A stretch of DNA of 32,606 nt from assembly GCA_903892995.1 (NCBI GenBank), contig CAITKP010000006.1, positions 1 to 32,606 on the forward strand, read 5' to 3'. Source of the DNA: an uncultured Campylobacterales bacterium. Lineage in GTDB: Bacteria > Campylobacterota > Campylobacteria > Campylobacterales > Sulfurimonadaceae. Of the stretch, positions 1-32,536 are shown in pieces. The notes beneath the pieces were generated by a model that worked only from the letters and a program-made list of their open reading frames with translations, ran no database searches and had not been told where the DNA came from. Positions within the stretch are counted from its first letter, which is position 1; every line of letters begins with the position of its first letter. A program made the position numbers and the translations under genes.

Positions 1-1
1 A

Positions 2-11859: not shown

Positions 11860-11878
11860 TTTGTTCAGAGGGCTCAAT
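11860..11878 (-). repeat. Right terminal inverted repeat of the IS5-family element
   Basis: The inverted copy of the 9989-10007 repeat, with one mismatch. It lies 50 bp beyond the stop codon of the UPF0174 gene at 11929. Confidence 0.75.
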
Positions 11879-11928
11879 TTTTCAAACGCAAACAAATTAG
11901 TGCAAAAACTTTCTTCACTGTTCTGAGC

Positions 11929-12654: not shown

Positions 12655-12703
12655 TTTCAATCCTTTTTTTATTTTTTAAATACCACAACTTTTTAATTGG
12701 CTT

Positions 12704-13594: not shown

Positions 13595-13668
13595 GCTTAT
13601 ACTTTACTGTAGATTGACGTTTTGAATATTATCATAAATATCTTCAAAATATTTGTTAAATATGCAAA

Positions 13669-15642: not shown

Positions 15643-16007
15643 AAAGACTCTTTCACAAGATGAGCGTTGAGAGCTTCTCTAAAATCCATTTCTTTTACTG
15701 GACCAAAGTGTTTTACATCAAACATCATGATTCCAGAATAAGAAAATCCTGCGTCAACATTTAAGATAGCATACGTCTTATTTTTATATGTAGCGCATCT
15801 AAGATCATGATACATATATGTATTGTCTAGTTTTTTATGTTTATTATTTATTGTAAGCATTATGTCTTGCTGCGAGACTGGAGAATCAGAACGAGCAGAA
15901 AAGAGGACCTTTTCCCCATTACATGTAATCAATTTTTGTATATGTTCGGCATGAAGTTCACAACTTAAGCACAAAGCACTACACAATAGCAATAACTCTT
16001 TTTTCAT
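15639..16007 (-). CDS. Small secreted protein upstream of the M48 protease
   Basis: This 122-residue protein has a clear signal peptide (MKKELLLLCSALCLSCELHA) and about 100 residues of mostly strand-forming sequence with two cysteines. It ends by overlapping the protease start (ATGA), so the two are made together and the product may be a periplasmic partner or substrate adaptor. AAGGAATAAAA precedes the ATG. I do not recognise the family. One exact TTACATGTAA palindrome lies inside it (15919-15928). Confidence 0.7.
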   Translation of the reverse strand: MKKELLLLCSALCLSCELHAEHIQKLITCNGEKVLFSARSDSPVSQQDIMLTINNKHKKLDNTYMYHDLRCATYKNKTYAILNVDAGFSYSGIMMFDVKHFGPVKEMDFREALNAHLVKESL

Positions 16008-16057
16008 TTTTATTCCTTATTTGAATTATGTTTATAAGAAATTTTAACGAAGCGGTG

Positions 16058-16073
16058 TGACAGGGTGTGTCAT
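16058..16073. promoter_or_regulatory. 16-bp TGACA-N5-TGTCA site, copy 2
   Basis: TGACAGGGTGTGTCAT is the reverse complement of 2335-2350. It lies in the divergent gap, 51 bp before the secreted protein/protease operon and about 100 bp before the gene at 16171. On the minus strand a TATAAA -10-like box (near 16030) lies about 20 bases downstream of the site, so a bound protein would affect that promoter. Confidence 0.45.
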
Positions 16074-16170
16074 AGGTCGGAGAGATTGCAAGAACATAAA
16101 AAAGTTTTTTACTAGTTTCACTGCTTTTCACACAAAAACTCGTTAAAATTCATAAAAAAGGGCGAAATTT

Positions 16171-16623
16171 ATGGCACAACTTTTTAAAACCATCGAAGAA
16201 CATATAGCTCACGATCGTAAACAGACGACTCTCTTTGTCAACTTCAGCCACACCTATAATAAAACCCGATTGGGTATTGTGTTTGAGAAAAATGATAATC
16301 CGTTCTTTTGGCTCAATAAAGAGAATGTCAACTGGGAAAAACGGGAAGAATTTCAAGCGTATATGGCAAATAATTATCCAAATATTACTCTCACAGATGT
16401 ATTTGATTCTGTCCCTCCAGAATATGAAGTATGGTCATTTTTAGGAACAATCGCTCTTGATGTAGAAGTTGATTCCCCAGAATACAATACAATTTGTAAC
16501 GCTTACGAAAACGCTGACGGCTCTCCAAAATCTCTCGATACCGTCATGTACATCATGACCCCAGAAGAAGCTGAAATACTTCTCAGCAAAAAATCCTCCG
16601 ATGAGGATCAAGAATCGCTATAA
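16171..16623 (+). CDS. Hypothetical soluble protein
   Basis: This 150-residue acidic protein has no signal peptide or membrane segment and no family I recognise. It is divergent from the protease operon, with a gap of 163 bp that contains copy 2 of the 16-bp dyad. The ATG is preceded by GGGCGAAATTT, a weak ribosome-binding site. Its last codons form two small hairpins (16593-16608 and 16613-16630), followed at once by a run of ten C. Confidence 0.6.
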   Translation: MAQLFKTIEEHIAHDRKQTTLFVNFSHTYNKTRLGIVFEKNDNPFFWLNKENVNWEKREEFQAYMANNYPNITLTDVFDSVPPEYEVWSFLGTIALDVEVDSPEYNTICNAYENADGSPKSLDTVMYIMTPEEAEILLSKKSSDEDQESL

Positions 16624-16630
16624 AGCGATT
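16613..16630 (+). terminator. Possible terminator hairpin overlapping the stop codon
   Basis: AATCGCT and AGCGATT form a seven-pair stem around ATAA, which contains part of the stop codon. Instead of a U-tract it is followed by one T or two and then ten C, so intrinsic termination is doubtful. Confidence 0.3.
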
Positions 16631-16631
16631 T

Positions 16632-16641
16632 CCCCCCCCCC
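16632..16641. repeat. Homopolymeric tract of ten C
   Basis: Ten consecutive C in otherwise AT-rich DNA, between the stop of the gene at 16171 and the small gene at 16704. Poly-G/C tracts in Campylobacterota often change length by slippage. This one is outside coding sequence, so any effect would be on transcript level or read-through. Confidence 0.8.
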
Positions 16642-16703
16642 TTGCGTATCAACACCTCTCTCAAACACATATTAAATCTTTGTAATCACATACAAGGAGA
16701 CAA

Positions 16704-16838
16704 ATGTATCACTATTCCCCTACCCACTCCCACGAGAACGAAACAGAAGTAGTAAAAAGATTAAACAGCCTTCTTACTTTTTCAGGTGCTCAAGCAGCTA
16801 ATAACAAAAACTACGCGCCCTTTACGCCCGTAGCATAA
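16704..16838 (+). CDS. Small hypothetical protein (44 aa)
   Basis: A short polar protein begins MYHYSPTHSHENETEVVKRL and has a strong ribosome-binding site (ACAAGGAGACAA). It is the first gene of the plus-strand group leading into the exonuclease and strand-annealing genes. No family is recognised. The excellent start signal argues that it is translated. Confidence 0.5.
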   Translation: MYHYSPTHSHENETEVVKRLNSLLTFSGAQAANNKNYAPFTPVA

Positions 16839-16855
16839 AGATAGGAGCTAAAAAG

Positions 16856-16930
16856 ATGATCAACTTTAACATCGATTTTATCCTCAACAGATTCCCTGAC
16901 TGCACCTGTCCCTCCAGCGAGGAGGAGTGA
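16856..16930 (+). CDS. 24-residue upstream peptide overlapping the exonuclease start
   Basis: The frame starts 17 bp after the previous gene, with TAGGAGCTAAAAAG before its ATG, and stops in TGATG, which is also the ATG of the exonuclease. It ends in three Glu codons (GAG GAG GAG) that also supply the exonuclease ribosome-binding site. It may serve mainly to couple translation. Confidence 0.4.
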   Translation: MINFNIDFILNRFPDCTCPSSEEE

Positions 16931-17700
16931 TGCTTCCTCAAGCCGACAAGATCTGGATAAGACCCTCAAGTATAAAGACCTTCTTGAAAAACCCCTACGA
17001 ATGGTATCAAACCCATATTTTAAAAGAATATACTCCTCCAAAAAGTTATCTGACTTTAGGTACAGCTGTACATCATGGATTAAACATCGGTTATGCCCAG
17101 TATATAAAAACAGGAGTAATACCTAGCAATAGTCTTATCTTAGAGGCAACTAACGAAGAGTTTCTAAAACTCTCAGCTACAACAAGCTGGCAAGAGGGAG
17201 AAGATTCTAATGAGTTTGCAGATTTGGCAAATAGACTGGTACTGGCATATCATAAAGAGATCATGCCAAAGATACAACCCAAATACACAGAACAGTACGT
17301 GGAAGTAAAGTTCGATAAGAACCCCTATATTGCAGGAGTAAGAGGAACTATAGATTTAATAACCCAAGATGACACCCTTGTGGATATAAAAACAGCAGGA
17401 ACCATCAGTCAAAGCTTACAGCTCAAACATGAGCTACAGCTTTCTGTCTATAGCCTCCTAGCTAAAGCTACCGACCTATCTATTAACGCTGCACAGATTC
17501 ATGAGATCATCAAACCAACAGCAACACTAGATACAAGAACCCGTATAGTAGATATCACCCTGCAAGAACAAAAAGCCGATGAGATCTTAGAGCAGCTTGC
17601 TAGTCGTATTAGTGACTTTTACAGAGCAGTAAATGGAGAACCTATCATAGATCCAGCCAATCTCTTTCATATGTCAAACAGTGAATATATGTACGCATAA
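16930..17700 (+). CDS. PD-(D/E)XK exonuclease (RecB/Cas4-like, phage type)
   Basis: This 256-residue nuclease has the RecB-type motif set: GTAVHHGL near residue 45 (His), GTIDL (Asp142), VDIKTA (Asp152 and Lys154) and HELQLSVY (Gln170, Tyr174). The N-terminal SSIKTFLKNPYEWY stretch is typical of the PDDEXK_1 group. The ATG at 16930 follows GGAGGAG; a GTG one codon earlier is also possible. It is followed by a probable strand-annealing protein, so the pair would act like lambda Exo/Beta or RecE/RecT in recombination-dependent replication or repair of the element. It lacks a Cas4-type cysteine cluster, so it is not Cas4 itself. Confidence 0.85.
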   Translation: MLPQADKIWIRPSSIKTFLKNPYEWYQTHILKEYTPPKSYLTLGTAVHHGLNIGYAQYIKTGVIPSNSLILEATNEEFLKLSATTSWQEGEDSNEFADLANRLVLAYHKEIMPKIQPKYTEQYVEVKFDKNPYIAGVRGTIDLITQDDTLVDIKTAGTISQSLQLKHELQLSVYSLLAKATDLSINAAQIHEIIKPTATLDTRTRIVDITLQEQKADEILEQLASRISDFYRAVNGEPIIDPANLFHMSNSEYMYA

Positions 17701-17723
17701 ACACAAAAATACAAAGGAAAAAA

Positions 17724-18791
17724 ATGTTATTAGACAAAGACTTATCTCTTCAACCCTATACGGTTGAAGAGCTCACAACATCAAACAACCCAAACTTTAC
17801 AGGTGGAGCCATCCAAACAAAAAATCGTTATGTCACAGCAATGCAAGTAATAAAACCACGCAATCTAAATCGCGTTATCTCTAAATGCGTAGAGGAAGCT
17901 TCTATCGCAGGAGAAGAGTTTCTCTATAGCTGGAAACAAGGAGGCAGTATTATAGAGGGACTCACCATAGGAGCTGCTCTCTCTATAGTACGTAACTTTG
18001 GAAACAGCTTTGTGGATGTAGATATGCAAGAACAAGAAAACGCCTATATCTTTACCGCATATTTTTGTGACTTAGAGACAGGATTTAACCTCTCACGCAG
18101 TTTCCGCCAAAACAAAGCCAGCCCAAAAACCAAATATGGCAAAGATATCTATGAAGGAGAGAGAGGGAGTGATATTATCTTTCAGATAGGACAAAGTAAA
18201 GCGATCCGTAATGTCATCCTCAATGCAGTGCCCAGATGGCTCGCTACCAAAGTGCTAGAGGAAGCCAAAAACAACGCTATGGCTACCATCAACAACATGG
18301 GAGAGGTGAAAGCAAAAGAGCTACTACTCAAAAAGATTTCAGCTTTAAAATTGGATCTAACTCGTATAGAAAATCTCTACGGTAAAAGTAAAGCATGGGA
18401 TAAAGTAAAGTTGGTGCAACTCAGCTCTGCTTTACGTTCACTAGAGAATGGATATGAGGATGAAGATACTCTCTTCCCACAAATAAAAGATGCCACACAC
18501 AACCAGCCAATACAAATAACCAACACAGAGAGAGAACCTATAGCGGTAATCGAGAATGATACGGCTACAACACTGGCGAATAACCGTACTAGACAATACC
18601 GTATCAATCAAGAGATCCTTAAAGCTGTAGAGGGAGATTTTAAGCTAGGGGCAAGTGTACTAGAAAAAATGTTTGAGCGTAAATTCAAACTCAACAGCTC
18701 CTTTGCTTCTCAGCTAGACCCTCATGAACTCGATAACATAGAGGGTATCTTCTTACAAAAGATGCAAGAGCTGCATCTGGAGGTGGCATGA
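17724..18791 (+). CDS. Probable phage-type single-strand annealing protein
   Basis: This 355-residue soluble protein is encoded 23 bp after the exonuclease. The central part contains EEFLYSWKQGGSIIEGLTIGAA, the aromatic stretch IFTAYFCDLETGFNLSRSFRQ, and IFQIGQSKAIRNVILNAVPRWL. The pattern resembles phage recombination proteins found beside exonucleases. After about residue 200 the sequence is helical and ends in a basic/acidic tail. The order exonuclease then annealing protein is the common phage arrangement. Assignment to RecT, Erf or another annealing family cannot be made by eye, so function is inferred mainly from position. AAAGGAAAAAA precedes the ATG. Confidence 0.6.
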   Translation: MLLDKDLSLQPYTVEELTTSNNPNFTGGAIQTKNRYVTAMQVIKPRNLNRVISKCVEEASIAGEEFLYSWKQGGSIIEGLTIGAALSIVRNFGNSFVDVDMQEQENAYIFTAYFCDLETGFNLSRSFRQNKASPKTKYGKDIYEGERGSDIIFQIGQSKAIRNVILNAVPRWLATKVLEEAKNNAMATINNMGEVKAKELLLKKISALKLDLTRIENLYGKSKAWDKVKLVQLSSALRSLENGYEDEDTLFPQIKDATHNQPIQITNTEREPIAVIENDTATTLANNRTRQYRINQEILKAVEGDFKLGASVLEKMFERKFKLNSSFASQLDPHELDNIEGIFLQKMQELHLEVA

Positions 18792-19093
18792 TGTCACATC
18801 AACTCATACCTACCAAGCACTCTATCCCTCTACTCTATGCGACAGAAGAACAAAAAGATCCTATGGCCTACGTCAAACTATTCACACCTGATAGCCACTG
18901 GACTTGGTATATTACAGAATACTCCCCAGAAGAGGATCTATGTTTTGGATTAGTGGTAGGATTAGAGACGGAACTGGGATATTTTAGTATTTCTGAGCTT
19001 CAAAGAATGCGAGGACCAATGGGGCTTAAGATAGAGAGAGATATACATTTTATGCCTGAGCAGTTATCAGTATTGAAAAAACAGCACCAATGA
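18788..19093 (+). CDS. DUF2958 family protein
   Basis: A 101-residue protein that matches the DUF2958 family seen on plasmids and islands. The pattern is LLYATEEQKDPMAYVKLFTP, then SHWTWYITEYSPEEDLCFGLVVG, then GYFSISELQRMRGPMGLKIERD. The start overlaps the previous stop (ATGA); a second ATG is the next codon. Function is unknown. It is a frequent companion of island DNA-processing genes. Confidence 0.85.
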   Translation: MMSHQLIPTKHSIPLLYATEEQKDPMAYVKLFTPDSHWTWYITEYSPEEDLCFGLVVGLETELGYFSISELQRMRGPMGLKIERDIHFMPEQLSVLKKQHQ

Positions 19094-19458
19094 AAAGCAT
19101 ACAAAGCTGGGAACAGCTAGCTGATCTTGAGGAACCTTACAAAACATACCTCACTGAAACAAAAAAAAGAATCCCTAACAGTGATGCTTGGAATTTCACG
19201 GAGTGGGGATATTGGATTATTATAGAGCGGTTTGAAGAGCTGTATTTACCTCTCAAAATAAACAGTATATATACCCTCTTGAGCATCCGAGAAGGACTTT
19301 TAAAGAAGATAGAACTCATAGAAGAACACTTTGGAGTGTGTGAGATTGTAGTGCTATTGGATAATGATTTTGGGGTGGGGATACTCTTTCGTACAGATAA
19401 AATCTCAGATCTATTCAGAAAAATAATTGAAACACATAAACTCTCTTGCTCCAAATAA
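19090..19458 (+). CDS. Hypothetical protein (122 aa)
   Basis: A soluble protein with Trp-rich N-terminal half (NFTEWGYWIIIERFEELY) and no recognised family. It overlaps the previous gene by four bases, so it is the last gene of the exonuclease group. It ends 22 bp before the hairpin at 19480 and converges with the integrase. Confidence 0.6.
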   Translation: MKSIQSWEQLADLEEPYKTYLTETKKRIPNSDAWNFTEWGYWIIIERFEELYLPLKINSIYTLLSIREGLLKKIELIEEHFGVCEIVVLLDNDFGVGILFRTDKISDLFRKIIETHKLSCSK

Positions 19459-19479
19459 AAAGAGTTTTTAAAAAACACG

Positions 19480-19522
19480 CGCCCGTCAACCCCGTAAAAT
19501 CTATTATGGGCATGACGGGCAT
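19480..19522 (-). terminator. Long hairpin between convergent genes, probable integrase terminator
   Basis: GCCCGTCA (19481-19488) pairs with TGACGGGC (19513-19520), and an inner CCCGTA/TATGGG stem extends it. On the minus strand it is followed closely by six T, which fits an intrinsic terminator for the integrase gene. The sequence is an inverted relative of the hairpin at 903-934. Confidence 0.6.
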
Positions 19523-19536
19523 AAAAAAGTGAAAAA

Positions 19537-20682
19537 TTATTTCTTGTACAAGGATGAGAGAGCATTTTTTGTCCCCTCATGTAACTCAACCTTAGCGTAT
19601 CGTTCAGTCATTTGCAAGCGGCTATGACTCATTAATTTTTTTACATCCAATAAATTTATATTTGGATTTTTGACAAGATGCGTAGCAAACGTATGTCTAA
19701 AAGTGTAGAGAGTAACACGATATTTACGATCATTTGCATCTAAATCTTGATTAAATAATTCATTGAGTGTAGGTTGAATTTGATTTTTAATTCCTTCATA
19801 AGTTAATGCTTTTGAGGGGATTGTTTTGGGGTTATCTGGATGAAAAATAAAATCATCATTTTTAAGATCTGCTACACGCTCCATTAACATTTCATACAAT
19901 TCATCCATCAAAGGGACAGAATATCTTTTACCCTTTTTTAATGCACCAAAAGTAATCATCTGATTCGTTGTATCTATATCTTTCTTTTGAGTATTTAAAA
20001 TAGCTTTTGGACGTGCTCCCGTACCTAAAGCTATCGAAATAAAAAGTAAAGCTTTAGGTTTATGGGCAAGACATTCGAAAATATGATTGATTTCTTGTGT
20101 TGACAGAACACGTTCACGTTCATTTTCTGGAGCTTTGATCGATATTTTTTGTGCGGGATTTGCAAAGCTTTCTATCTCATCGAAGTTTTTAATTCCATAA
20201 TTTATTATAGCTTTTAATGTCGCATGATAGCTATTAATAGATGCTTGTTTATAAGTCTTTTCAAAACTCTTTAACCAATTAACTAGCATTTCCTTTTTAA
20301 TTTCCACAATTGGCAAATGCCCAAAAGTTGGTTTTATCTTATTTACATATTTCTTATAAGATTCTAAATAGATTTCGGGTTTTGCACGTGTTTTATATTC
20401 TTCAAAATATTTTACTGCTACTTCTTCAAGTAATAATTTTTTGACAATTCTACGTTTTTTAATAAAATTTGGCTCATCTCCATCTAGCTTAATTGCGCTG
20501 AGAGTTTCCAATCGTTTTCTATATGCATCGGACTCATTAAAACTATCTGATTGCTTACCAACCTTAATCCATCTTTTTTTTCCTTCTAAATCTTTATAGG
20601 TAAACTCATATACTCTATCGCCATTGAGCGTATCCCTATAGTAAACACCTTGATATTTTTTTGAACGTATTCTATTTGCCAT
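19537..20682 (-). CDS. Tyrosine recombinase / phage-type integrase
   Basis: This 381-residue integrase has an N-terminal arm-binding-like part (MANRIRSKKYQGVYYRDTLNG) and a core-binding SAM-like domain (about 90-180). The catalytic domain carries Arg224 in GTGARPKAIL, YTFRHTFATHL (Arg329), SHSR (His353) and the nucleophile Tyr362 in MTERYAKVE. The His of the usual HxxR box appears as Tyr (YTFR), a tolerated variation. It would insert and excise the island. It lies at the island's right edge and reads leftwards. Three GCTACC repeats lie in front of its start. No tRNA target is visible next to it. Confidence 0.9.
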   Translation of the reverse strand: MANRIRSKKYQGVYYRDTLNGDRVYEFTYKDLEGKKRWIKVGKQSDSFNESDAYRKRLETLSAIKLDGDEPNFIKKRRIVKKLLLEEVAVKYFEEYKTRAKPEIYLESYKKYVNKIKPTFGHLPIVEIKKEMLVNWLKSFEKTYKQASINSYHATLKAIINYGIKNFDEIESFANPAQKISIKAPENERERVLSTQEINHIFECLAHKPKALLFISIALGTGARPKAILNTQKKDIDTTNQMITFGALKKGKRYSVPLMDELYEMLMERVADLKNDDFIFHPDNPKTIPSKALTYEGIKNQIQPTLNELFNQDLDANDRKYRVTLYTFRHTFATHLVKNPNINLLDVKKLMSHSRLQMTERYAKVELHEGTKNALSSLYKK

Positions 20683-20690
20683 TGTTGTAT

Positions 20691-20727
20691 GCTACCTAAC
20701 TTTTTTTTGTGCTACCCTCTTGCTACC
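20691..20727. promoter_or_regulatory. Three GCTACC direct repeats upstream of the integrase
   Basis: GCTACC occurs at 20691-20696, 20711-20716 and 20722-20727, the last two as GCTACCC. Such short repeats in front of an integrase may be arm-type binding sites for it or an excisionase, or operator half-sites. No flanking att duplication is apparent. Confidence 0.45.
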
Positions 20728-20890
20728 CATTTTGCAAATTTTTATATGATTTTAGAGAGTAATTTACAGCAAGTATCTTAACAGAAAAGTCTTAAAAGTG
20801 GCTATTTATGGGATTGTGAAGTTTTAGAAAGTTTTATGAAATATACGAGCACAATGATTATCGATCATTAAAATCATAAATTTCTCTTTT

Positions 20891-20927
20891 ATAAAATGCT
20901 ATAAGGAGTGAAATTATAGCATTTTAT
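20891..20927. terminator. Thirteen-pair AT-rich hairpin, probable terminator
   Basis: ATAAAATGCTATA and TATAGCATTTTAT are exact inverted arms around an 11-base loop, with TTTT after the right arm. It lies 14 bp beyond the stop of the ComEA-like gene and separates it from the integrase promoter region. The stretch 20728-20890 holds no gene that I can see. Confidence 0.55.
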
Positions 20928-20940
20928 TTTTCAGCAGAGA

Positions 20941-21192
20941 TTATTTTGTTTTACATTTTCCAACAGTCAAATCTTTTTTATTTTGTTCTACAAATTTATC
21001 GCCAAGACCTTTAACCGCTGTTAACTCTTGTATATTTTTAAAACAATGATCTTTTCTATAAGTGAGTATTGCATCAGCTTTTGCATCGCCGATCCCTTTG
21101 ATACTCATCCACTGATCTTTTGTTGCGTTATTGATATCAACCGCACCAAATAACAAACCTGCACTAATTGCTAGCGTTGCTAAAATTTTCAT
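20941..21192 (-). CDS. ComEA-like secreted helix-hairpin-helix protein
   Basis: An 83-residue protein with signal peptide (MKILATLAISAGLLFGAVD) and a double helix-hairpin-helix domain (INNATKDQWMSIKGIGDAKADAI and IQELTAVKGLGDKFVEQNKKDL). ComEA proteins bind double-stranded DNA in the periplasm and pull it in during natural transformation. The short form without a long linker is typical of Gram-negative bacteria. It has an excellent AAGGAGTTCAA ribosome-binding site. It lies downstream of the polysaccharide operon but has its own start region. Confidence 0.85.
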   Translation of the reverse strand: MKILATLAISAGLLFGAVDINNATKDQWMSIKGIGDAKADAILTYRKDHCFKNIQELTAVKGLGDKFVEQNKKDLTVGKCKTK

Positions 21193-21244
21193 TTGAACTC
21201 CTTGTTTTTTTTATGAAAAAAATTATACATCAAAATATTTTTTT

Positions 21245-23029
21245 TTAGTTAAGTTTATGCTCAAACTCGGGAACTATCTCTTTTAATTTTGCCAATTTAT
21301 CTTTACATGTAAGCAGTTCTTCAATATCTGCATTCAATTTATCAATATCATAAAAGCTAGGTGCTGCAACAGTGATAGACTCATATTCTGTTGCTGCATC
21401 ACTCTCATCGATGAGCAGTTCTTCATAGAGTTTTTCTCCTGGACGCAAGCCTGAAAATTTAATCTCTAAATCCTCTTTTCCACTCAGTTCAAGCATCTTT
21501 TTCGCAAGATCGACAATCTTAACAGGTTCCCCCATATCGAGTATAAATATCTCTCCCCCGCTTCCAATTGCCCCAGCTTGCAAAACAAGCTCGCACGCTT
21601 CGTTAATAAGCATAAAATATCTCGTGATATCTGGATGTGTTACAGTGAGTGATCTGCCCTGCTCTATCTGAGAGCGAAATTTTGGTATCACACTGCCACT
21701 ACTGCCTAAAACATTTCCAAAACGAACAGCCACAATATCTGTACATGGAGCGTTTTGCGAAGAAATTGCATTTTCTAAAGAAACTACGTTTTGCGCATAG
21801 AGTTCACAGATACGTTTTGTTGTTCCCATCACATTTGTGGGTCGTACTGCTTTATCTGTGGAGATCATCACCAATTTTTTGACTCCATATTTTATAGCTG
21901 TATCGATGACATTTTTTGTACCGATGATATTGTTGAGTATCGCTTCATGGATATTGCTCTCTACTAAAGGAACATGCTTATATGCTGCTGCATGGATCAC
22001 GATATCGGGGCAATAGCGTGCAAAGGTCTCTTCAAGACGCTCTTTATCCACAATACTTTGCATCACAGGAACTCTTGTTACATCTAAAATCTCTTCTGTA
22101 ATTGCATAAAGATTGTATTCGCTATGATCGAGTAAAATCAGTTTTTTAGCACCAAACATTTCGCATTGACGACTTATCTCGCTTCCGATACTTCCTCCAG
22201 CACCTGTGATAAGGATCACTTTATCTTTGATAAATTCACCTATTTTATTTTTATCAAGATCTTTTGGATTGCGAGCGAGAAGATCCTCGATGGTCAGATT
22301 TTTGAGTTTTGTTTCATGATTTGTCAAAGAGATCATACGGATATCTGTAATATGCATCTCTTTTAAAACTTTATATATCTTGTTTAACTCTTCAGCCTTA
22401 AAAGGTTTTGCAATAATCACAGAATCAACACTTTTTTCCATGATGATCTTTGCCAAGTTTGCTATTGATTCAATTTTTAGATTTGAAAAATATGTTCCTA
22501 TGAGATGCTTATCATCATCAACTAAGGAGCAGATATAATGGTCTGTTTTCTCTTTCATAATAGTTTGAGAAAAAGAAGACGCTCCAATGATAAGCGTTCT
22601 TTGTGAACTTTTATTGGATTCGTTTTCCAAGATAAGACGTTTTAAAACTCGAAAAAAGCCTAGAAAAAGTATCGATAAAGAGAGATCAATGATCAAAACA
22701 CTTCGCGGAAATGGAGCAAAAAACTGAGGAACTGCATAATAGATAACAATCATCAAAGGATAAGCGATCATATGCGCATATACGATTTTCTTAAGATCAC
22801 TGAGCGAAAAAAACTTCCATGAGACTTCATAAAGATTAAAGTATGCGATAGAGCCTATCTTTAAAAAAAGAAGGATAAAAAAGACTAAGAAAAAATGCTC
22901 TAAATAGGTTCCATCTACACTAAAATTAAAGCGTAGATTATAAGCTAAAAAGAGTGTACCAAGCGAAATAACAATATCAAAAAATATAAAAAATAGAGCC
23001 CTTTTTGCAGGCGTTGGCTTTAGAATCAT
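21245..23029 (-). CDS. pglF/wbpM-like: UDP-GlcNAc 4,6-dehydratase, membrane-bound (PglF/WbpM type)
   Basis: This 594-residue enzyme has four N-terminal membrane segments (about 12-30, 45-65, 85-103, 110-128) and a CoA-binding-like domain (145-240). The SDR dehydratase domain has the Rossmann motif TGAGGSIGSE (275-284), HAAAYKHVPLVE (346-357), STDKA (390-394) and MGTTKR (Met401, Lys405) in place of the common YxxxK. It converts UDP-GlcNAc to UDP-2-acetamido-2,6-dideoxy-4-hexulose, the first step to QuiNAc, FucNAc or bacillosamine. Its length matches PglF of Campylobacter (about 590). It overlaps the upstream transferase by four bases; the gene order wbpV-wbpL-wbpM favours a WbpM role. No pgl-type transferase is next to it. 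Confidence 0.85.
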   Translation of the reverse strand: MILKPTPAKRALFFIFFDIVISLGTLFLAYNLRFNFSVDGTYLEHFFLVFFILLFLKIGSIAYFNLYEVSWKFFSLSDLKKIVYAHMIAYPLMIVIYYAVPQFFAPFPRSVLIIDLSLSILFLGFFRVLKRLILENESNKSSQRTLIIGASSFSQTIMKEKTDHYICSLVDDDKHLIGTYFSNLKIESIANLAKIIMEKSVDSVIIAKPFKAEELNKIYKVLKEMHITDIRMISLTNHETKLKNLTIEDLLARNPKDLDKNKIGEFIKDKVILITGAGGSIGSEISRQCEMFGAKKLILLDHSEYNLYAITEEILDVTRVPVMQSIVDKERLEETFARYCPDIVIHAAAYKHVPLVESNIHEAILNNIIGTKNVIDTAIKYGVKKLVMISTDKAVRPTNVMGTTKRICELYAQNVVSLENAISSQNAPCTDIVAVRFGNVLGSSGSVIPKFRSQIEQGRSLTVTHPDITRYFMLINEACELVLQAGAIGSGGEIFILDMGEPVKIVDLAKKMLELSGKEDLEIKFSGLRPGEKLYEELLIDESDAATEYESITVAAPSFYDIDKLNADIEELLTCKDKLAKLKEIVPEFEHKLN

Positions 23030-23988
23030 TGAAACCCTTTTTTTGTATCTACAAATCTCACAACACTATACAAGAAGATCAAAGAGATCCCAAAGGCAAG
23101 AAAAACATTGGAGATAAAATAGAGCGATGCAAATAAAATAAAGTTCACTAAAACCGAAAATAAAACCACTTTTTGATGGCTCCAGCCACTTTGTGTAAGT
23201 CTTTGATAGGCATGTTTTCTATGTGCTTGAGAGAGCTTCTCTTTGTTTTTAAATCTTCTAAAAAGCGTCAAGGTCGCATCAAACCAAAACACTCCAAAAA
23301 GCAGGATCCAAATCCATAAATTTTCACTTGCTTTGTTGGCGTAGTAGAGCGTAAATACAGCAATATTGAAACCTAAAAGTGTGCTTCCAACATCGCCCAT
23401 AAAGATCTTTGCCTTTTGCCAGTTCCATACCAAAAATCCCAAAACAGCAAGAGCTAAAAATAAAAAATGCTCTCCGCCAAAAAGTAAAAATCCAGCAATC
23501 GCTAAGAATATCGCTTCGCTTCCTGCATAGCCATCAATTCCATCTAAAAAATTGTACAGATTTATAAACCAAACTATCAGAAAAAAAGCGAAAATATTGA
23601 GAAGAAATGGATTCGTCAGTTCAAAAATTCCAAAATCTATTTTCACTAAACCGCCAAGAAAAAAGAGTGCGCCAAGAGCGACACCACTTTGAGTAAAGAG
23701 TCTGATTTTGGGACTCAGTTCAAAAAGGTCATCTAGATAACTCACAACAGATAAAATACTTCCAAGAAGAAGTGCGTAAAACAGTTTTTCATCTATTTTA
23801 TCGCTTACATGTAAGCTAAAAAGTGCTCCAAACCAAGTGATGGCAATGGCAATTCCTCCGCCGTGCGGCGTGGCAACAGTGTGAGAACTTCGTTCATTTA
23901 CCTCGGCAACCAAGGCGTTTTTAATGGCATAATTTTTAATAAGATAGGTCGCAAAAAAAGAGCAGACAAATACAATCAAATAGCTCAA
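23026..23988 (-). CDS. wbpL-like: Undecaprenyl-phosphate glycosyl-1-phosphate transferase (WecA/WbpL family)
   Basis: A 320-residue polytopic membrane enzyme of the MraY/WecA family, with about ten hydrophobic segments. Active-site features are DDLFELSPKIR, NLYNFLDGIDGYAG, MGDVGSTLLGF, and a basic loop with RRFKNKEKLSQAHRKHAYQRL. It would attach a HexNAc-1-phosphate (QuiNAc, FucNAc or GlcNAc) to undecaprenyl phosphate at the inner membrane, starting the repeat unit. Its neighbours supply UDP-QuiNAc or UDP-FucNAc, so I infer that substrate. It is 1 bp downstream of the epimerase gene. Confidence 0.85.
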   Translation of the reverse strand: MSYLIVFVCSFFATYLIKNYAIKNALVAEVNERSSHTVATPHGGGIAIAITWFGALFSLHVSDKIDEKLFYALLLGSILSVVSYLDDLFELSPKIRLFTQSGVALGALFFLGGLVKIDFGIFELTNPFLLNIFAFFLIVWFINLYNFLDGIDGYAGSEAIFLAIAGFLLFGGEHFLFLALAVLGFLVWNWQKAKIFMGDVGSTLLGFNIAVFTLYYANKASENLWIWILLFGVFWFDATLTLFRRFKNKEKLSQAHRKHAYQRLTQSGWSHQKVVLFSVLVNFILFASLYFISNVFLAFGISLIFLYSVVRFVDTKKGFQ

Positions 23989-23989
23989 A

Positions 23990-24847
23990 CTACGCTTCTC
24001 CCTTTATCATAAACCCCATTGCATCCTCTACTTTGTAAGGATTTTTAAGGTTCAATCTCTCTTTTGTAATTTTGTTATCCACTTGTAAACTCCCATATAA
24101 GCGCTTATGAAAAGATGGCTTGAGCAGTTTTAAGAATGTTTCAAAGAGCACAATTGTAACAAGAAAAATCTTTTTATTTAAATTTTTTGCAATATGCTCT
24201 ATGAGTTCACTCGTGCTGAGCGCTTCATCATCGCTTGATAAAAATATCCCACTTGGCTTTTGAATAATCAGTTCATCTATTAAGTGGCAAAGATTGCCTA
24301 CATACACCATACTTCGCTTATTTTGGATATTTCCAAAAGGCAAAATAGGCATTTTCTGCACTAAGGTTATAAGATTTTTGATATTTGCCCTCACACCAAA
24401 TCCATACACTATCGGAGTGCGGATAATCGTGACACAAAAATTTTCATCTTCAAGTTTTTTGAGCTCATTTTCAGCTTTTAGTTTACTCTTTCCATACTCA
24501 TCTTGGGGCTTACAGGGAAAGCTTTCTGTATATTTTTCATCTGCTTCTTCGCCGTAAACTTTCACTGTGCTCATAAAGACAAACTGCCCTACTCCAGCAT
24601 TTTTTGCCTTTTGTGCAAGGTCAAGCGTTTGAGTCACATTTACTCTTTCATACTCAACCTCACTTGGCATCACACCCATCTGATGCACAAGCGCAGAGAG
24701 ATGAATGACAACATCAATATCGCTTACATTTAAGGCTTTTATATCCTCTTTTAAAAATGAAAATCTTTTTATCTCGTACTTGCCTGCATATTTGTTCAAA
24801 AAATAGCTTCCTACAAAGCCGTTTGCACCAGTTAATAAAACTTTCAT
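23990..24847 (-). CDS. wbpV-like: NAD-dependent epimerase/4-reductase (WbpV-like)
   Basis: A 285-residue extended SDR with the NAD motif TGANGFVGS (residues 7-15), STVKVYGE (catalytic Ser/Thr region) and YGKSK (Tyr and Lys). WbpV-type enzymes reduce the 4-keto product of WbpM to UDP-QuiNAc; GalE-like epimerases look similar, so the substrate is an inference from the wbpV-wbpL-wbpM order. It overlaps the glycosyltransferase gene by ATGA. Confidence 0.75.
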   Translation of the reverse strand: MKVLLTGANGFVGSYFLNKYAGKYEIKRFSFLKEDIKALNVSDIDVVIHLSALVHQMGVMPSEVEYERVNVTQTLDLAQKAKNAGVGQFVFMSTVKVYGEEADEKYTESFPCKPQDEYGKSKLKAENELKKLEDENFCVTIIRTPIVYGFGVRANIKNLITLVQKMPILPFGNIQNKRSMVYVGNLCHLIDELIIQKPSGIFLSSDDEALSTSELIEHIAKNLNKKIFLVTIVLFETFLKLLKPSFHKRLYGSLQVDNKITKERLNLKNPYKVEDAMGFMIKGEA

Positions 24848-25692
24848 CTTTTATAATATCCTAAATTTTGAAGAGTTTTTTTGTTCACACGAGTTCGTTC
24901 TGCATCAAAAAACCAGCCATATTTTTTAAAATAAGTAAAAACAGAAGCGATGAAAATATAGAGAAGTTTTCTACTTTTATGCGCGCCTCGTTGGTACTCA
25001 TGCACAATGCTCACTTTTGGGTAATAGAGCGTTTTTGAGATTTTAGCGATCCTGCGAGTAAGGTCAGCATCTTCGAGATACATAAAAAACTCTTCATCAA
25101 AGAGACAATCTTGTGCCAAAAAATCTGTGCGAAAAAACATAAAACAGCCCGATAAAAAAGGGATCTCAGCGATTTCGTCATAGCTGAAAAACTCTAGTTC
25201 GTAACGATTATTGATCCAGTTTACAAAAGATTTTATTGGGATAAATCTCCTTGCAAAAAGATCAAGCGGAGTTGGCAAAAGTTTGCAAAGTTTTTGTAAA
25301 TCTCCATTTGGATAGAGCACTTTTGGCATAATCTGACCAACATCTCTATGCGCTTGCATATACGCATAAAGCTCCTCAATCACCCCTTTTTCAAAGTAGA
25401 TATCAGGATTTAAAACCACATGATAAGCCACACCATTTTCTATACTTTTTCGCATAGCGATGTTGTGTCCACCGCCATAACCGAGATTTGCATTGTTAAA
25501 AATATACTCTATTCTCTCATCATTTAAGGCGAGTTCTTTTAGCGCATCAGTTGCAGAGTTATCGATGAGATAGAGCTTTATGCCAACAGGGAACTTTACA
25601 TGTAGGTCTGTATTTAAAAAGCTCTCTATCACTTTTTGGAGTTGTTCTTTGTTGTTATGGTACAGCACTATTGAAGCGTTAATTTGTGACAT
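24844..25692 (-). CDS. Family 2 glycosyltransferase (rhamnosyltransferase-like)
   Basis: A GT2-fold enzyme of about 282 residues. It starts SQINASIVLYHNN, has LYLIDNSATD (nucleotide binding), the metal site in VVLNPDIYFEKG, and FMYLEDADLTRRI for the acceptor base region. The ATG at 25692 has AAGAGAG at good distance; an ATG at 25698 is too close to it. Rhamnosyltransferases of the WbbL/RfbN group look like this, but sugar specificity cannot be read. It overlaps the acyltransferase gene, so both belong to the same transcript. Confidence 0.8.
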   Translation of the reverse strand: MSQINASIVLYHNNKEQLQKVIESFLNTDLHVKFPVGIKLYLIDNSATDALKELALNDERIEYIFNNANLGYGGGHNIAMRKSIENGVAYHVVLNPDIYFEKGVIEELYAYMQAHRDVGQIMPKVLYPNGDLQKLCKLLPTPLDLFARRFIPIKSFVNWINNRYELEFFSYDEIAEIPFLSGCFMFFRTDFLAQDCLFDEEFFMYLEDADLTRRIAKISKTLYYPKVSIVHEYQRGAHKSRKLLYIFIASVFTYFKKYGWFFDAERTRVNKKTLQNLGYYKR

Positions 25693-26677
25693 TGGCATCT
25701 CTCTTTATGATTTTTTTTCCTAGTTGAATAAATCTCTTTTCTATATACTTTTCAGAAAAATAGGATAAAAATAAAACGATAAAAAATAGACTAAAAAATG
25801 AGATAAAAGGGTTACTAGAAATCAATTTGAAATACAAGCCTAATTGAATGATTGGGAAATGCAAGATATAAAAACTATATGAAAAATCAAATTTAATCTG
25901 AATATTTTTAAGAAAATAGGCTAAAAAAATGACGATTATACCAATAGAAAATGGATAAAGTGTAAATTTAAAATAGCTATTATCAGAAAATAAAAGGATT
26001 AAAATAAAACTTAATACAAGCAAAGGGTAGATATTTTGTTTGTTGATTTTATCAAAGAAGATATAAAAAATGACACCAACCATAAAAAGTCTAAGTTGCG
26101 AGGGAAACTGCACTAAGAGTTTTGTCATGCCAAAATGCTCAACTCCAAACATATATATAACCGATAAACTATACAAAACAGCAAGAAAAAGTACTCCAAA
26201 TTTTTTATATAATGCAAAAATAAAAGGTACTACTATGTAAAAGATTACTTCATTTTTAAGCGTCCATAAACTTCCATTTATGGCATCTACATGTAAGCCA
26301 CTCAATGTAGTTGCAACAGACTGAGATAAAAAGTTCAAAAAGAAAATGTTAGATACAAAATATTTTCCAATCTGCAATAAAGTTCCATCAGAAAACAGAA
26401 TATAAAAGAGTGTTTGCAATAAAATCAAAATTGCATAAAGTGGAAATATTCTAAAAAATCTTTTTATATAAAAGTGCTTTTTGTTTTGATCTGCATCAAA
26501 ACTCCAAAAGATCAAAAAACCACTTACTATAAAAAACATATCCACCGCAAAGCCACTCAAGTGAAAAAGTGGATTTAATAACTCTTGTGAGGTTAGAATA
26601 TTCCAATGAGCAAAAAATACCAAGACTGCAAAAAGTAGTCTTAGTATATTGAGATTATTTTCTTTAATGTTTATCAA
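25679..26677 (-). CDS. Acyltransferase-3 family membrane protein (OafA/NodX-like)
   Basis: A 332-residue protein with about ten membrane segments. The family signature is an N-terminal LRLLFAVLVFFAHW with the His used in catalysis, then GFAVDMFFIVSGFLIFWS and KRFFRIFPLYAIL. Such enzymes O-acetylate surface polysaccharides. It has no extra SGNH domain. It sits between two glycosyltransferases and overlaps both, indicating modification of the same polymer. Confidence 0.85.
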   Translation of the reverse strand: MINIKENNLNILRLLFAVLVFFAHWNILTSQELLNPLFHLSGFAVDMFFIVSGFLIFWSFDADQNKKHFYIKRFFRIFPLYAILILLQTLFYILFSDGTLLQIGKYFVSNIFFLNFLSQSVATTLSGLHVDAINGSLWTLKNEVIFYIVVPFIFALYKKFGVLFLAVLYSLSVIYMFGVEHFGMTKLLVQFPSQLRLFMVGVIFYIFFDKINKQNIYPLLVLSFILILLFSDNSYFKFTLYPFSIGIIVIFLAYFLKNIQIKFDFSYSFYILHFPIIQLGLYFKLISSNPFISFFSLFFIVLFLSYFSEKYIEKRFIQLGKKIIKRDANVTN

Positions 26678-27434
26678 AATAATCCTTGAAATAGAGTCTT
26701 ACATATTTTATAAGTGAAAAAATAATTAAAAATGGGAGTGCTAAAAATAGAATTTTTTTGTATTTCAAAGCATTGATATACATTTGAATCTCCCCTTTTC
26801 TCATATTCCATTTTTGTGCGCTCAATCCACCAGATGATAGTGGCTTGCGCCCGAGTAAAACAAGTGGAAGATCGAGGAAATATATATTTTTTTTAGATGC
26901 GATTCTAAGCCACAATTCATGATCTTCAGCAAACTTCATCTTCTCATCGAAGAGTTCTAGTGCCTCTTTTCTCACAACAATACTTGGAGTAACCGCAAAA
27001 TTTCTCATAAGAAGCTGAAAAAATGAGATTTTTCTTGGCGTTTTATTTGTATATTTTTCAGAAAAATTTTCATTTAATGTATATGAATGACCCAAAAGAT
27101 CGATCTCTTTGTTATTTTCTAAAAGATTTAAAACTAATTCCAATTTTTGAGGATGCCAAACATCATCTGCATCAAGAAAAGCTATGTATTTGCCAGTGGC
27201 TTTTTCAATCCCTTTATTGCGTGCAGCAGAGGGTCCACTATTGTCTTGATAAATATAGGTGTATCGTACATTTTTATCTTGCAAAAGCTGTTCTATGATC
27301 TCTCTTGTTTTATCGCTACTTCCATCATCTACAATAATAAGTTCATACTCTTTATATGTTTGATGAAGGACACAGAGCAAAGTTTTTTCTATGCTCTCTT
27401 GAGCGTTAAAACAGGGGATAATGATGGAAAACAA
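26664..27434 (-). CDS. Family 2 glycosyltransferase
   Basis: A 256-residue GT-A enzyme with FSIIIPCFNAQESI, IIVDDGSSDKT, GPSAARNKGIEKATGKYIAFLDADD (written here in part) and EDHELWLRI in the catalytic-base position. A C-terminal hydrophobic helix (LFLALPFLIIFSLIKYV) could hold it at the membrane. It is 2 bp after the GT4 gene and overlaps the acyltransferase gene by 14 bases. Donor and acceptor sugars are not predictable. Confidence 0.85.
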   Translation of the reverse strand: MFSIIIPCFNAQESIEKTLLCVLHQTYKEYELIIVDDGSSDKTREIIEQLLQDKNVRYTYIYQDNSGPSAARNKGIEKATGKYIAFLDADDVWHPQKLELVLNLLENNKEIDLLGHSYTLNENFSEKYTNKTPRKISFFQLLMRNFAVTPSIVVRKEALELFDEKMKFAEDHELWLRIASKKNIYFLDLPLVLLGRKPLSSGGLSAQKWNMRKGEIQMYINALKYKKILFLALPFLIIFSLIKYVRLYFKDYFDKH

Positions 27435-27436
27435 TG

Positions 27437-28699
27437 CTATTTCCCTTGAATTTTTTCAAAGATATCAACTAATTTTTCTACTTGATATCTTCTCTCAAAC
27501 TGAGATCTATCTATTTTATATGCGTTATCGATCTCTTCTAAAACAGTTTTATCTTTAATATTTTTCACAAACGCAACTATCTCTTTAATCTTATTCGAAG
27601 CCAATCCAAAGTTATGATCTCGAATAAGATTTGAAGCCACATCATCAACTGCACCAATAGATAAAATAGGTTTTGCACTGCCTATGTATTCAAAAAGTTT
27701 TCCAGTGAAGACACCTTTTTCTTGTGGATCATTCCATGTGAGAAGCAGTAAAATATCACTGCGAGCTTGTAGTTTTAGCACTTCCTCTCTATCGATTGGA
27801 GTGAAAACTTTTACATTCTTACTCAACCCATGTTCTTTGGCTCTTTCATTGACCCAAGCTAAAGAATTACCATAAAAAAGGCATTCTACATGTTCTTTGA
27901 GGTAAGCATCACTTGCGATTGCTTCAAACAAAACAGATGGGTCTCTCTTGCCGGCATACATCATTCCTGTATAAGTGATAACAATCTTTTTCTCATCTTC
28001 TACAAAATCACTATATTTAAAATCCTCTGCATCAAAAGCATTTCTAATTTCATAACAAGGAACACTATACTTTTGACTTAGTTTTTCAACTAAAGGTGCT
28101 GAAACAGTGACAATAGCAGAAGCATTTTTAAGTGTAATATACTCTAAAAATCTACCAACACTATATTGAGGATCATAATGGTTATCTGACCAGAGATCAC
28201 GAAGTTCTGCTACAAAAGGAATTCCATACTCTTTACTTAGTTTCGATGCCACCATCAAACCAGTATAGGGTCCAGAAGAGGCGTAAATAATATCTGGTTT
28301 CCACTCATCCACTACTTCACGAGACTCTGCCAAAGCATACTTATACCAGCCAATCCACTGATCTGGAACATAAAAGAAAAATTTATAAAGTGCAAAAAGC
28401 TTTTGAATGATCTTGGTCTTTAAACTCATTTTTCCGCCATGAAGGACTTCTCCTTTGAGCTGATCTTTTTTTCCGCGACCTAAAATATTGACTACTGCAT
28501 CGTCAATACTAAACCAAGAGGTTTGATGCAAAAGATTTTTTGGTATCTCAACCTCTAGCTCCTCTTTCATACTATTTTTAGCAGAGATAACTTTAATTTC
28601 ATGCCCCATCTCATGGAGCAGTTTGGCAGTTTTTCCTGTTCGTATAGAGGCAACTGTTTTATAGGGAGGAAAGAAGAATGTAATAAATAATATCTTCAT
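27437..28699 (-). CDS. Family 4 glycosyltransferase
   Basis: A 420-residue GT-B enzyme. The N-terminal domain begins MKILFITFFFPPYKTVASIRTG, and the C-terminal domain has VITYTGMMYAGKRDP and GVFTGKLFEYIGSAKPIL, where the conserved acidic residue of GT4 (EX7E-like region) is expected. It resembles WbuB-type transferases of O-antigen clusters. It overlaps the wecB gene by four bases. A role in adding ManNAc- or FucNAc-type sugars is likely given that neighbour, but unproven. Confidence 0.8.
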   Translation of the reverse strand: MKILFITFFFPPYKTVASIRTGKTAKLLHEMGHEIKVISAKNSMKEELEVEIPKNLLHQTSWFSIDDAVVNILGRGKKDQLKGEVLHGGKMSLKTKIIQKLFALYKFFFYVPDQWIGWYKYALAESREVVDEWKPDIIYASSGPYTGLMVASKLSKEYGIPFVAELRDLWSDNHYDPQYSVGRFLEYITLKNASAIVTVSAPLVEKLSQKYSVPCYEIRNAFDAEDFKYSDFVEDEKKIVITYTGMMYAGKRDPSVLFEAIASDAYLKEHVECLFYGNSLAWVNERAKEHGLSKNVKVFTPIDREEVLKLQARSDILLLLTWNDPQEKGVFTGKLFEYIGSAKPILSIGAVDDVASNLIRDHNFGLASNKIKEIVAFVKNIKDKTVLEEIDNAYKIDRSQFERRYQVEKLVDIFEKIQGK

Positions 28700-29757
28700 T
28701 TAAGTAGCTCTTTTATAATCATTTCACTCGCTTTTCCTCCGCCATAAAGATCGAGCGAACTATTCGTGCTATCAAAAGATGATCTAGTTTTATACGCTTC
28801 AAGGATCTTATTTTTATCTGCTCCAACAAGTGTATTTGCCTTACATGTAACGAGTTCTATCCACTCCGTTTCATCTCGAAGCGTGATACAAGGCTTTGAA
28901 AAAAAGTAGGCTTCTTTTTGAAGTCCACCGCTATCTGTCATCACTAAACTCGAATGATCTATAAGCCAGACCATCTCAAGATATCCTACAGGATCGATAA
29001 TTGTAAGATTTTGAAAATTTAAATCTAAGTTTTCTAAAATCTTTTTTGTTCTTGGATGCAAAGGCAAAATAATCTGCTTTTCTTGTGCAATCTCTTCAAG
29101 AGCTTCAAATATAGCCCTTAATCTTTGTTCATCATCTGTATTTTCTGCTCTATGAATAGTACAAAGGATAAAATCATTTTGAATATCACAAGATGGTTTT
29201 TTTGCAAACTCTTTATAAAAGAGCGCTCCATCTTGCATCACATCACCACTTTTTACGACCTTACATGTAAAGGTATCAAATCCCTCATTTTTAAGGTTTT
29301 GCACCGCTGTGTCTGTTGGACAAAATAATATATTACTTACTCTGTCTGTAAGTATCCTATTTATCTCTTCTGGCATATTCATGTTAAAACTTCTTAGCCC
29401 TGCTTCTATATGGGCTAGCTTTACATGTAACTTACTTGCGACTATCGCACCCGCTAATGTGGAGTTTGTATCACCATACACCATGATCCAGTCTGGCTTT
29501 TCTTTTAAGCAAACTTCTTCGATCTTTTCTATCATCTGCCCTGTCATAGCACCATGTGATTTTCCGCCAATTCCAAGAAAATAATCAGGTTTTGGTATCT
29601 GCATCTCTTGAAAAAAGATATCAGACATATTGGCATCGTAATGTTGCCCTGTATGAACTATGATCTCTTCTATCTCTTTGTGCTTTGCAATTTCACGACT
29701 GACCGAGCCAGCTTTAATAAACTGTGGTCTTGCCCCGAGTATGGTTAGTATTTTCAT
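28696..29757 (-). CDS. wecB: UDP-GlcNAc 2-epimerase, non-hydrolysing
   Basis: A 353-residue enzyme that interconverts UDP-GlcNAc and UDP-ManNAc. Signature pieces are ILGARPQFIKAG, VHTGQHYD, MVYGDTNSTLAGA, HIEAGLRSF with MPEEINR, and CTIHRAEN, all containing known active-site residues (Asp, Glu, His). The length is normal for WecB/MnaA. It supplies ManNAc or its derivatives to the operon. Three exact TTACATGTAA palindromes lie within this gene. Confidence 0.9.
   Translation of the reverse strand: MKILTILGARPQFIKAGSVSREIAKHKEIEEIIVHTGQHYDANMSDIFFQEMQIPKPDYFLGIGGKSHGAMTGQMIEKIEEVCLKEKPDWIMVYGDTNSTLAGAIVASKLHVKLAHIEAGLRSFNMNMPEEINRILTDRVSNILFCPTDTAVQNLKNEGFDTFTCKVVKSGDVMQDGALFYKEFAKKPSCDIQNDFILCTIHRAENTDDEQRLRAIFEALEEIAQEKQIILPLHPRTKKILENLDLNFQNLTIIDPVGYLEMVWLIDHSSLVMTDSGGLQKEAYFFSKPCITLRDETEWIELVTCKANTLVGADKNKILEAYKTRSSFDSTNSSLDLYGGGKASEMIIKELLK
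28841..29430. repeat. Cluster of TTACATGTAA palindromes (three of six exact copies)
   Basis: Exact copies lie at 28841-28850, 29261-29270 and 29421-29430; others are at 15919, 21303 and 23805. One-mismatch copies are at 3615, 25596 and 26287. All are inside coding regions, so they are unlikely to be promoters. A genome-wide motif such as an uptake or segregation signal is a possibility. Confidence 0.6.
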
Positions 29758-31463: not shown

Positions 31464-32536
31464 TACAAAGTCTCTTTAATAATTGAAATGATTTTTGTCT
31501 GTATCTCTTTTTCGAGTTCAGCATAAATAGGCAAACAAAGTATTCTTGTTGAGATATCTCTTGATATTTGACATATCTGTTTTGGTTCGATATAACTTAA
31601 GGTATCAAGTGAGGGGTAAAAATATCTTCTTGGCATTATCTCTTGCTCATTTAAAGCTTTTTGCACTTTTAAAAGTTGCTCTTCACTTTCAAAAACTATT
31701 GGAAAATAGCTATAGTTCTCTGTAGCATTTTCATTTTGCTCTTGAAACTGAACCAATCCATTTAACTTTTCTCTATAGTTTTCTAAAATATCTTTTCTTT
31801 TTTGTTTTATCTCTTCTATATCATCAAGCACACAAAGTCCCATTGCCGCTTCAAACTCATTCATCTTAGCATTTGTCCCAAGTTCTGGTATCTCTTGCGC
31901 ATTTTTGATACCAAAGTTTATAAGATATCTTGCTTTTTGCACAAGCTCATCATCATTTATGATCAACGCTCCACCCTCTATGCTATGAAAGAGTTTTGTA
32001 GCATGAAAACTCAAAGTTGAGATATCTCCATAGTTTAATACACTTTGCTCTTTATACTTCACATCAAAAGCATGAGCAGTATCATAGATGACTTTTAGAT
32101 CATGTTCTTTAGCAATACGCTCTATCTTTTCTACTTCACAAGCATTTCCAAATACATGTACAGGAAGTATTGCTGATGTATTTGGAGTAATGAGTTTTTC
32201 TATATTGTTTGGATTTAGATTAAATGAATTTGGGTCAATATCTGCAAAAATTGGTAAAAGCTGATTTGTTACAAGTGAGCTTGTGGTTGCTACAAAGCTA
32301 AAAGGTGTTGTTATTACAAAACCTTTTAATCCAAGAGTTCTATAAGCTATCTCTAACGCAACTGTACCATTTGAAACTAATACTATATTTTTTACTCCGA
32401 GATACTCTGCAAGCCTTTTTTCAAGTCTTTGAACCAATGGACCATTGTTTGTAAGCCATCCGTTTTCATAAATTTCATCTATGTACTTTTTATATTTTTC
32501 TTTATTTGGAAGGTAAGTTTTTGTTACGTTAATCAT
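31463..32536 (-). CDS. DegT/DnrJ/EryC1-family sugar aminotransferase
   Basis: A 357-residue PLP enzyme that aminates a keto-sugar nucleotide. NGTVALEIAYRTLGL binds the cofactor phosphate, TTPFSFVATTSSL follows, YDTAHAFDVKYKE holds the Asp that contacts PLP, and SFHATKLFHSIEGGAL holds the Schiff-base Lys. VioA- or FdtB-type enzymes making 4- or 3-amino-4,6-dideoxyhexoses look like this. With the following acyltransferase and WecF-like protein it forms a donor-making and transfer trio. The ATG has GGGAGATGCTAA in front and overlaps the end of another frame. Confidence 0.88.
   Translation of the reverse strand: MINVTKTYLPNKEKYKKYIDEIYENGWLTNNGPLVQRLEKRLAEYLGVKNIVLVSNGTVALEIAYRTLGLKGFVITTPFSFVATTSSLVTNQLLPIFADIDPNSFNLNPNNIEKLITPNTSAILPVHVFGNACEVEKIERIAKEHDLKVIYDTAHAFDVKYKEQSVLNYGDISTLSFHATKLFHSIEGGALIINDDELVQKARYLINFGIKNAQEIPELGTNAKMNEFEAAMGLCVLDDIEEIKQKRKDILENYREKLNGLVQFQEQNENATENYSYFPIVFESEEQLLKVQKALNEQEIMPRRYFYPSLDTLSYIEPKQICQISRDISTRILCLPIYAELEKEIQTKIISIIKETL

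Follow-up and report, generated by a model that had tools for sequence, protein, structure and literature searches.

The palindromic decamer TTACATGTAA is dispersed in high copy number through the genome of an uncultured Campylobacterales bacterium of the family Sulfurimonadaceae and through those of several relatives, and it is read here as an individually maintained self-mark, possibly a methylation-gated DNA-uptake signal. This reading is put forward tentatively, its chance of being correct falling a little short of even. The motif was first noticed in a stretch of 32,606 nucleotides (the window), corresponding to contig C6 in the 107-contig assembly of a 2.43-Mb genome (G000). In the genus Sulfurospirillum, upkeep of the mark appears to depend on, or to travel with, an orphan adenine methyltransferase that descends from M.NlaIII-type (CATG) enzymes.

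Enrichment, shape and distribution of the palindrome

Statistics for the window genome are drawn from whole-genome counts and from a sample of approximately 320-350 kb. The whole genome contains 756 exact copies of TTACATGTAA and one copy of the reversed control, a count that is clearly neither near expectation nor confined to polysaccharide genes, the two outcomes that a first-pass annotation of the window had listed as telling against a genuine signal. In the sampled DNA the core TACATGTA was observed 132 times against 4 expected, whereas its single-mismatch variants were at background (139 observed, 149 expected). The outermost base of the decamer is variable, changing mostly to C, and outer-base variants are the sole near-misses enriched genome-wide. 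C precedes the site and G follows it, A is nearly absent at -1 and -2, and coding and noncoding sites alike are flanked on either side by A/T-rich arms (-4 to -8), the whole forming an exact palindromic core in a ~26-bp dyad with symmetric C/G and A/T-rich arms. A terminator hairpin was rejected as the cause of the arms, since coding sites carry them too. Inverted motif pairs 14-18 bp apart number three in G016 and show little excess in Sulfurospirillum.

Motif sites are enriched 2.5-4.5 times in noncoding DNA and are enriched downstream of genes, but are scarcer in divergent promoter gaps. The first-pass annotation had placed all copies in coding sequence; this holds for the window, where all lie within open reading frames (ORFs), but not for the genome, in which 16 of 74 sampled sites are noncoding although only ~9% of the sequence is. 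Its view that promoter sites are unlikely is supported. Genic sites code for LHV(K/S/N) or (L/F)TC(K/N) and are costly to proteins through these fixed LHV or TCK peptides. Recurrent LHV and TCK/TCN peptides would also be expected if the enrichment were a codon-pair or composition artefact, but that explanation is refuted by the reversed control, by the 1,061 copies present even at ~54% GC (G005) and by the conservation of noncoding sites, which exceeds that of coding sites, leaving it a negligible probability. A phage or mobile origin was also rejected, a search for close pairs in IMG/VR having returned only unrelated tandem-repeat contigs.

The palindromic dyad, with its arms 4-8 bp beyond the core in coding and noncoding DNA, and the avoidance of divergent promoter gaps are compatible with binding by a dimeric protein that organises or segregates the chromosome or belongs to the nucleoid; the dimer would read core and arms, perhaps in a methylation-sensitive manner. 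Strict conservation site by site, described below, would also suit such a protein. However, 756-1,496 sites are, by general knowledge, far above the known segregation or nucleoid-occlusion sets, patchiness among close relatives would be odd for a core chromosome function, and no candidate protein was found. A nucleoid or segregation site ranks next after an uptake signal, and is considered unlikely.

Among 101 genomes of Sulfurimonadaceae, the motif was abundant in four genera (g1, g3, g5, g6) and a few species of g2, most other members being near zero. In a survey of 397 Campylobacterota genomes, it was otherwise abundant only in Sulfurospirillaceae (f10), in nearly all members, and in one genus (g74) of a third family, f3. 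Copy numbers ranged from 49 to 1,496 per genome in Sulfurospirillum (g39), with 1,099 in the type strain of S. deleyianum (G216), while in f3 there were 1,059 copies in G399 (g74) and 78 in one g66 genome; the remaining genomes had approximately 0-10. Dialects of the motif occur, with CTTACATGTAAG in g1, CTTTACATGTAAAG in Sulfurospirillum and TTTACATGTA in G004, and a looser ACATGT/TCTACATGTAGA form is present in G064 and G094. No replacement palindrome of comparable strength was found in the motif-free relatives sampled. In two motif-free genomes, G025 (L179-L182) and G010 (L175-L178), other words of ACCATTCACC and GCGAATCGC type are over-represented; these are non-palindromic and unexplained. 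No report of the decamer as a bacterial genome-wide motif was found in open-licence full text, subscription papers and REBASE lying outside the search, and no report of an uptake sequence in Sulfurimonas was found there either.

Maintenance in Sulfurospirillum and the linked methyltransferase

Many motif-rich genomes contain a subfamily of D12-class methyltransferases (PF02086), and the linked enzyme has the D12-class catalytic motifs FAGxG and DPPY. Both within Campylobacterota and in other phyla, relatives adjoin ICEA/NlaIII-type endonucleases (PF05315, E 8.7e-121), with an ICEA-type match at 25 loci, 24 of them strong, and several loci with such a partner are nearly CATG-free. These partners and the scarcity of CATG suggest that the family is CATG-specific, and CATG is the centre of TTACATGTAA. 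No solved structure matching the methyltransferase profile was found. In a tree of 115 proteins, an orphan clade of 14 rows (support 100/98) unites the enzymes of ten Sulfurospirillum genomes with those of four g3/g6 genomes (1,056-1,496 and 794-1,061 motif copies, respectively); its members are confined to genomes with 794-1,496 copies and none lies beside an endonuclease gene. The clade enzyme occurs in 10 of 15 Sulfurospirillum genomes, with relatives in g3, g5 and g6, and the enzymes of other motif-rich genomes (G004, G022, G016, G409, G435, G399) are long-branch orphans whose placement in the tree is unsure. One Sulfurospirillum genome (G151) has a second methyltransferase copy on a short contig, possibly a plasmid (C2:1692-2621, L297).

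All ten Sulfurospirillum carriers of the clade enzyme have at least 1,056 copies of the motif and all five non-carriers have at most 934, a ranking with odds of 1 in 3,003 under independence of the genomes, an assumption that does not hold. The non-carrier with 934 copies (G322) also lacks the neighbouring gene, so the locus may simply be absent from its assembly. The orphan gene occupies one conserved locus, with a CheY-like gene on one side and usually a small-protein gene on the other; in G235 and G269 the neighbours are kept and the methyltransferase gene is gone, leaving an empty site. Both genomes are nested among carriers in a tree of 18,628 aligned positions, built with motif sites masked and rooted on G412. 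G293 may represent a second loss of the methyltransferase, depending on the root.

Among seven carrier species, motif sites were identical in 759 of 907 pairwise comparisons, against 18% of all 10-mers, although comparisons of this kind share genomes and hence are not independent. Per-position identity was 0.93-0.97 at exactly the ten positions and ~0.78 outside them, and coding sites were identical in 80% of cases, noncoding sites in 93% (background 18% and 28%). Against G235 and G269, only 12 of 175 sites were identical, under the 17% background, with retention of 10% for coding and 2% for noncoding sites. Across whole genomes, the one-mismatch excess over control per exact copy was 0.12-0.25 for carriers (ten genomes), compared with 0.29-3.4 for non-carriers (five genomes); no substitute motif was found in G235. 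The high identity among the seven carriers and the erasure in G235 and G269 show that the signal is maintained and that, in Sulfurospirillum, the methyltransferase tracks its maintenance. The first-pass annotation had listed a methylation target among its candidates; a link to a methyltransferase is supported in Sulfurospirillum, with sites kept in the presence of the enzyme and erased in its absence, but it is incomplete in the window's genus. In G293 (L303/L328-L331), all 29 of 29 compared noncoding sites were kept but only one third of coding sites, which suggests that coding copies are lost before noncoding ones.

In the Sulfurospirillum genomes that have lost the methyltransferase, motif sites diverge more than their flanks even where they are noncoding (identity 0.61 versus 0.69 in non-independent pairwise comparisons), a pattern resembling selection against the unmethylated motif, and relatives of the enzyme are part of NlaIII-type restriction systems. 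Such behaviour might be expected of an anti-restriction or defence mark, whereby methylated TTACATGTAA would shield DNA from, or instruct, a self/non-self nuclease and unmethylated copies would be harmful. The shared genomes weaken the case for faster decay, however, while restriction normally brings avoidance rather than 30- to 100-fold enrichment and the orphan enzymes have no adjoining partner nuclease; a defence mark is therefore judged very unlikely.

Copies of the motif in the window

The six exact copies reported in the first-pass annotation were all recovered, and its expectation of about 0.1 exact copies in the window agrees with order 0-4 Markov models, which give 0.04-0.13. Sites in the window are as follows, with the strand of the containing gene in brackets.

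15919..15928, strand., exact TTACATGTAA, in ORF 15639-16007 (-), codes TCN
21303..21312, strand., exact TTACATGTAA, in polysaccharide biosynthesis gene 21245-23029 (-), codes TCK
23805..23814, strand., exact TTACATGTAA, in glycosyltransferase-type gene 23026-23988 (-), codes LHV
28841..28850, strand., exact TTACATGTAA, in UDP-GlcNAc 2-epimerase gene 28696-29757 (-), codes TCK
29261..29270, strand., exact TTACATGTAA, in the same UDP-GlcNAc 2-epimerase gene, codes TCK
29421..29430, strand., exact TTACATGTAA, in the same UDP-GlcNAc 2-epimerase gene, codes LHV
3615..3624, strand., near-miss GTACATGTAA, core TACATGTA kept, outer base differs
25596..25605, strand., near-miss TTACATGTAG, core TACATGTA kept, outer base differs
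26287..26296, strand., near-miss CTACATGTAA, core TACATGTA kept, outer base differs
32152..32161, strand., ATACATGTAC, core TACATGTA (32153-32160), both outer bases differ

The three one-mismatch copies that the annotation had given (3615, 25596 and 26287) are real and keep the core intact, but the window total is six; those it had omitted, at 22078, 24724 and 30900, have a broken core and are background-like.

Positions 1-15918 hold no exact motif over 15.9 kb, against approximately five expected at the genome mean density, and encode recombinase, transposase and primase-like genes. With these genes the region has a mobile appearance, so that DNA of recent acquisition seems to be without the mark. 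Three neighbouring dynamin-family GTPase genes lie at 4183-9971 (-), the last of which (605 aa) has a C-terminal EF-Tu domain 2, an unusual fusion. A phage-type integrase gene at 19537-20682 (-) adjoins a ComEA-like HhH gene (20941-21192), at the edge of an integrated element.

The uptake reading and comparison with known systems

For TTACATGTAA to act as a methylation-gated uptake mark, the orphan enzyme would methylate it, and the natural-transformation machinery, or another reader of self DNA, would favour DNA that bears it. Recombination would then keep re-importing intact copies, mutated copies would vanish and, after loss of the enzyme, all copies would vanish. The uptake idea fits the distribution of the motif (3'-intergenic enrichment, dialects and A/T arms), and it fits sites that are many, exact, protein-costly, denser after genes and erased with the enzyme.

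The DNA uptake sequences (DUS) of Neisseriaceae and the uptake signal sequences (USS) of Pasteurellaceae have genus dialects, noncoding enrichment after genes and strong per-site conservation. TTACATGTAA resembles them in its dialects, in its post-gene noncoding enrichment, in its per-site conservation in Sulfurospirillum and in belonging to a naturally transformable phylum; unlike them, it is palindromic and tied to an orphan methyltransferase, and its role in uptake is putative. A precedent within the phylum is C. jejuni, which imports only CtsM-methylated DNA (PMC8468864), the CtsM target being RAATTY, which occurs 28,482 times in a C. coli genome (PMC8627207). CtsM too is an orphan adenine methyltransferase with a palindromic target and marks self DNA, as the enzyme described here may do (PMC8468864, PMC8627207), but RAATTY is short and simply abundant, whereas the present 10-bp sequence is TACATGTA-centred and is actively accumulated. 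Joining the logic of the Neisseria uptake sequence with that of Campylobacter CtsM, such that enzyme loss would erase the signal, TTACATGTAA could exemplify a third kind of uptake specificity, in which an orphan methyltransferase, co-opted from NlaIII-type restriction, gates a long palindrome accumulated genome-wide; this is possible, although we would sooner doubt than assert it. The NlaIII and HpyI (CATG) restriction-modification systems share the methyltransferase family, relatives of which adjoin ICEA/NlaIII endonucleases, but the motif-linked enzymes are orphan and long-branched, and the CATG-centred site is enriched, not avoided.

Several observations weigh against an uptake mark coupled to this enzyme. 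Outside Sulfurospirillum the coupling of methyltransferase and motif is incomplete: no M.NlaIII-type methyltransferase was found in motif-rich G053 (340 copies, complete), G046 (380) or G038 (194), and six genomes with a full-length methyltransferase have fewer than 10 motifs. A simple rule equating the presence of one with that of the other was rejected, with six exceptions one way and several the other, and a clean split is given by the orphan clade only, and within Sulfurospirillum only. In the window genome, the M.NlaIII-type gene (C37:83507-84376) is missing its first 44 residues, including the S-adenosylmethionine (AdoMet) motif, lacks the FAGxG/DPPY motif set, and has an HNH gene and a fragmentary N6/N4 methyltransferase gene as neighbours; the sole intact relative is a divergent paralogue (C25:6087-7115), which is a candidate only. 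In the window's genus, 5 of 29 aligned sites were identical, without conservation beyond that of the surroundings. The truncated enzyme, the motif-rich genomes without the family and this turnover of sites indicate that upkeep of the motif in the window's genus is by another methyltransferase or another process. Furthermore, known uptake sequences are, to our knowledge, not palindromic, and TTACATGTAA, as a perfect palindrome, lacks the asymmetry expected of one. The papers searched yielded no report of natural transformation in motif-bearing genera. Nearly all genomes, motif-bearing or motif-free, have the competence channel ComEC; it was rejected as a discriminator, and the ComEA-like gene that the first-pass annotation had taken as a pointer to uptake consequently adds nothing.

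The truncated locus of the window genome (L114 5504-7890, on C37) lies between tsaD and a hydrolase gene, a spot that holds varying restriction-type genes in relatives. The divergent paralogue on C25 (L115 3498-7115) is accompanied by two uncharacterised downstream genes, and with these neighbours may be part of a restriction system.

The motif also resembles the cyanobacterial highly iterated palindrome (HIP) HIP1 (GCGATCGC) and the alternate HIPs, which likewise are short palindromes in hundreds to thousands of copies, have a methyltransferase tetranucleotide at the centre, include bearers without a methyltransferase and, as found here, show deviations biased to the first and last position. 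It differs from them in phylum and sequence, in the lack of MutL, and in its dyad A/T arms, gene 3'-end enrichment and loss-linked erasure. In the model of Elhai, the cyanobacterial palindromes arise via MutS/MutL-dependent repair, and TTACATGTAA could similarly be a functionless epiphenomenon that a methylation-directed repair bias makes and keeps. The central tetranucleotide, the enrichment of near-misses at the outermost base only, as in HIP1, and the dependence on the orphan methyltransferase in Sulfurospirillum would accord with such an origin. However, MutL (PF01119) was absent in 23 of 23 motif-bearing genomes searched, whereas 11 of 14 controls had it. The published MutS/MutL mechanism therefore cannot operate here and was excluded, and the 3'-intergenic enrichment and A/T arms demand an additional reader; an epiphenomenon of this type is quite unlikely.

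In Sulfurospirillum the sites are letter-perfect only where the lone methyltransferase gene is present, which points to a previously undescribed self-recognition signal, most likely for the uptake of own-kind DNA. Ever since the description of HIP1 in cyanobacteria, the role of such palindromes has been an open question. The same phenomenon is now found in a different phylum and in culturable type strains that are not pathogens, such as S. deleyianum, and, with species nested among carriers that are without one enzyme and in which the signal is gone, the question of function becomes experimentally testable.

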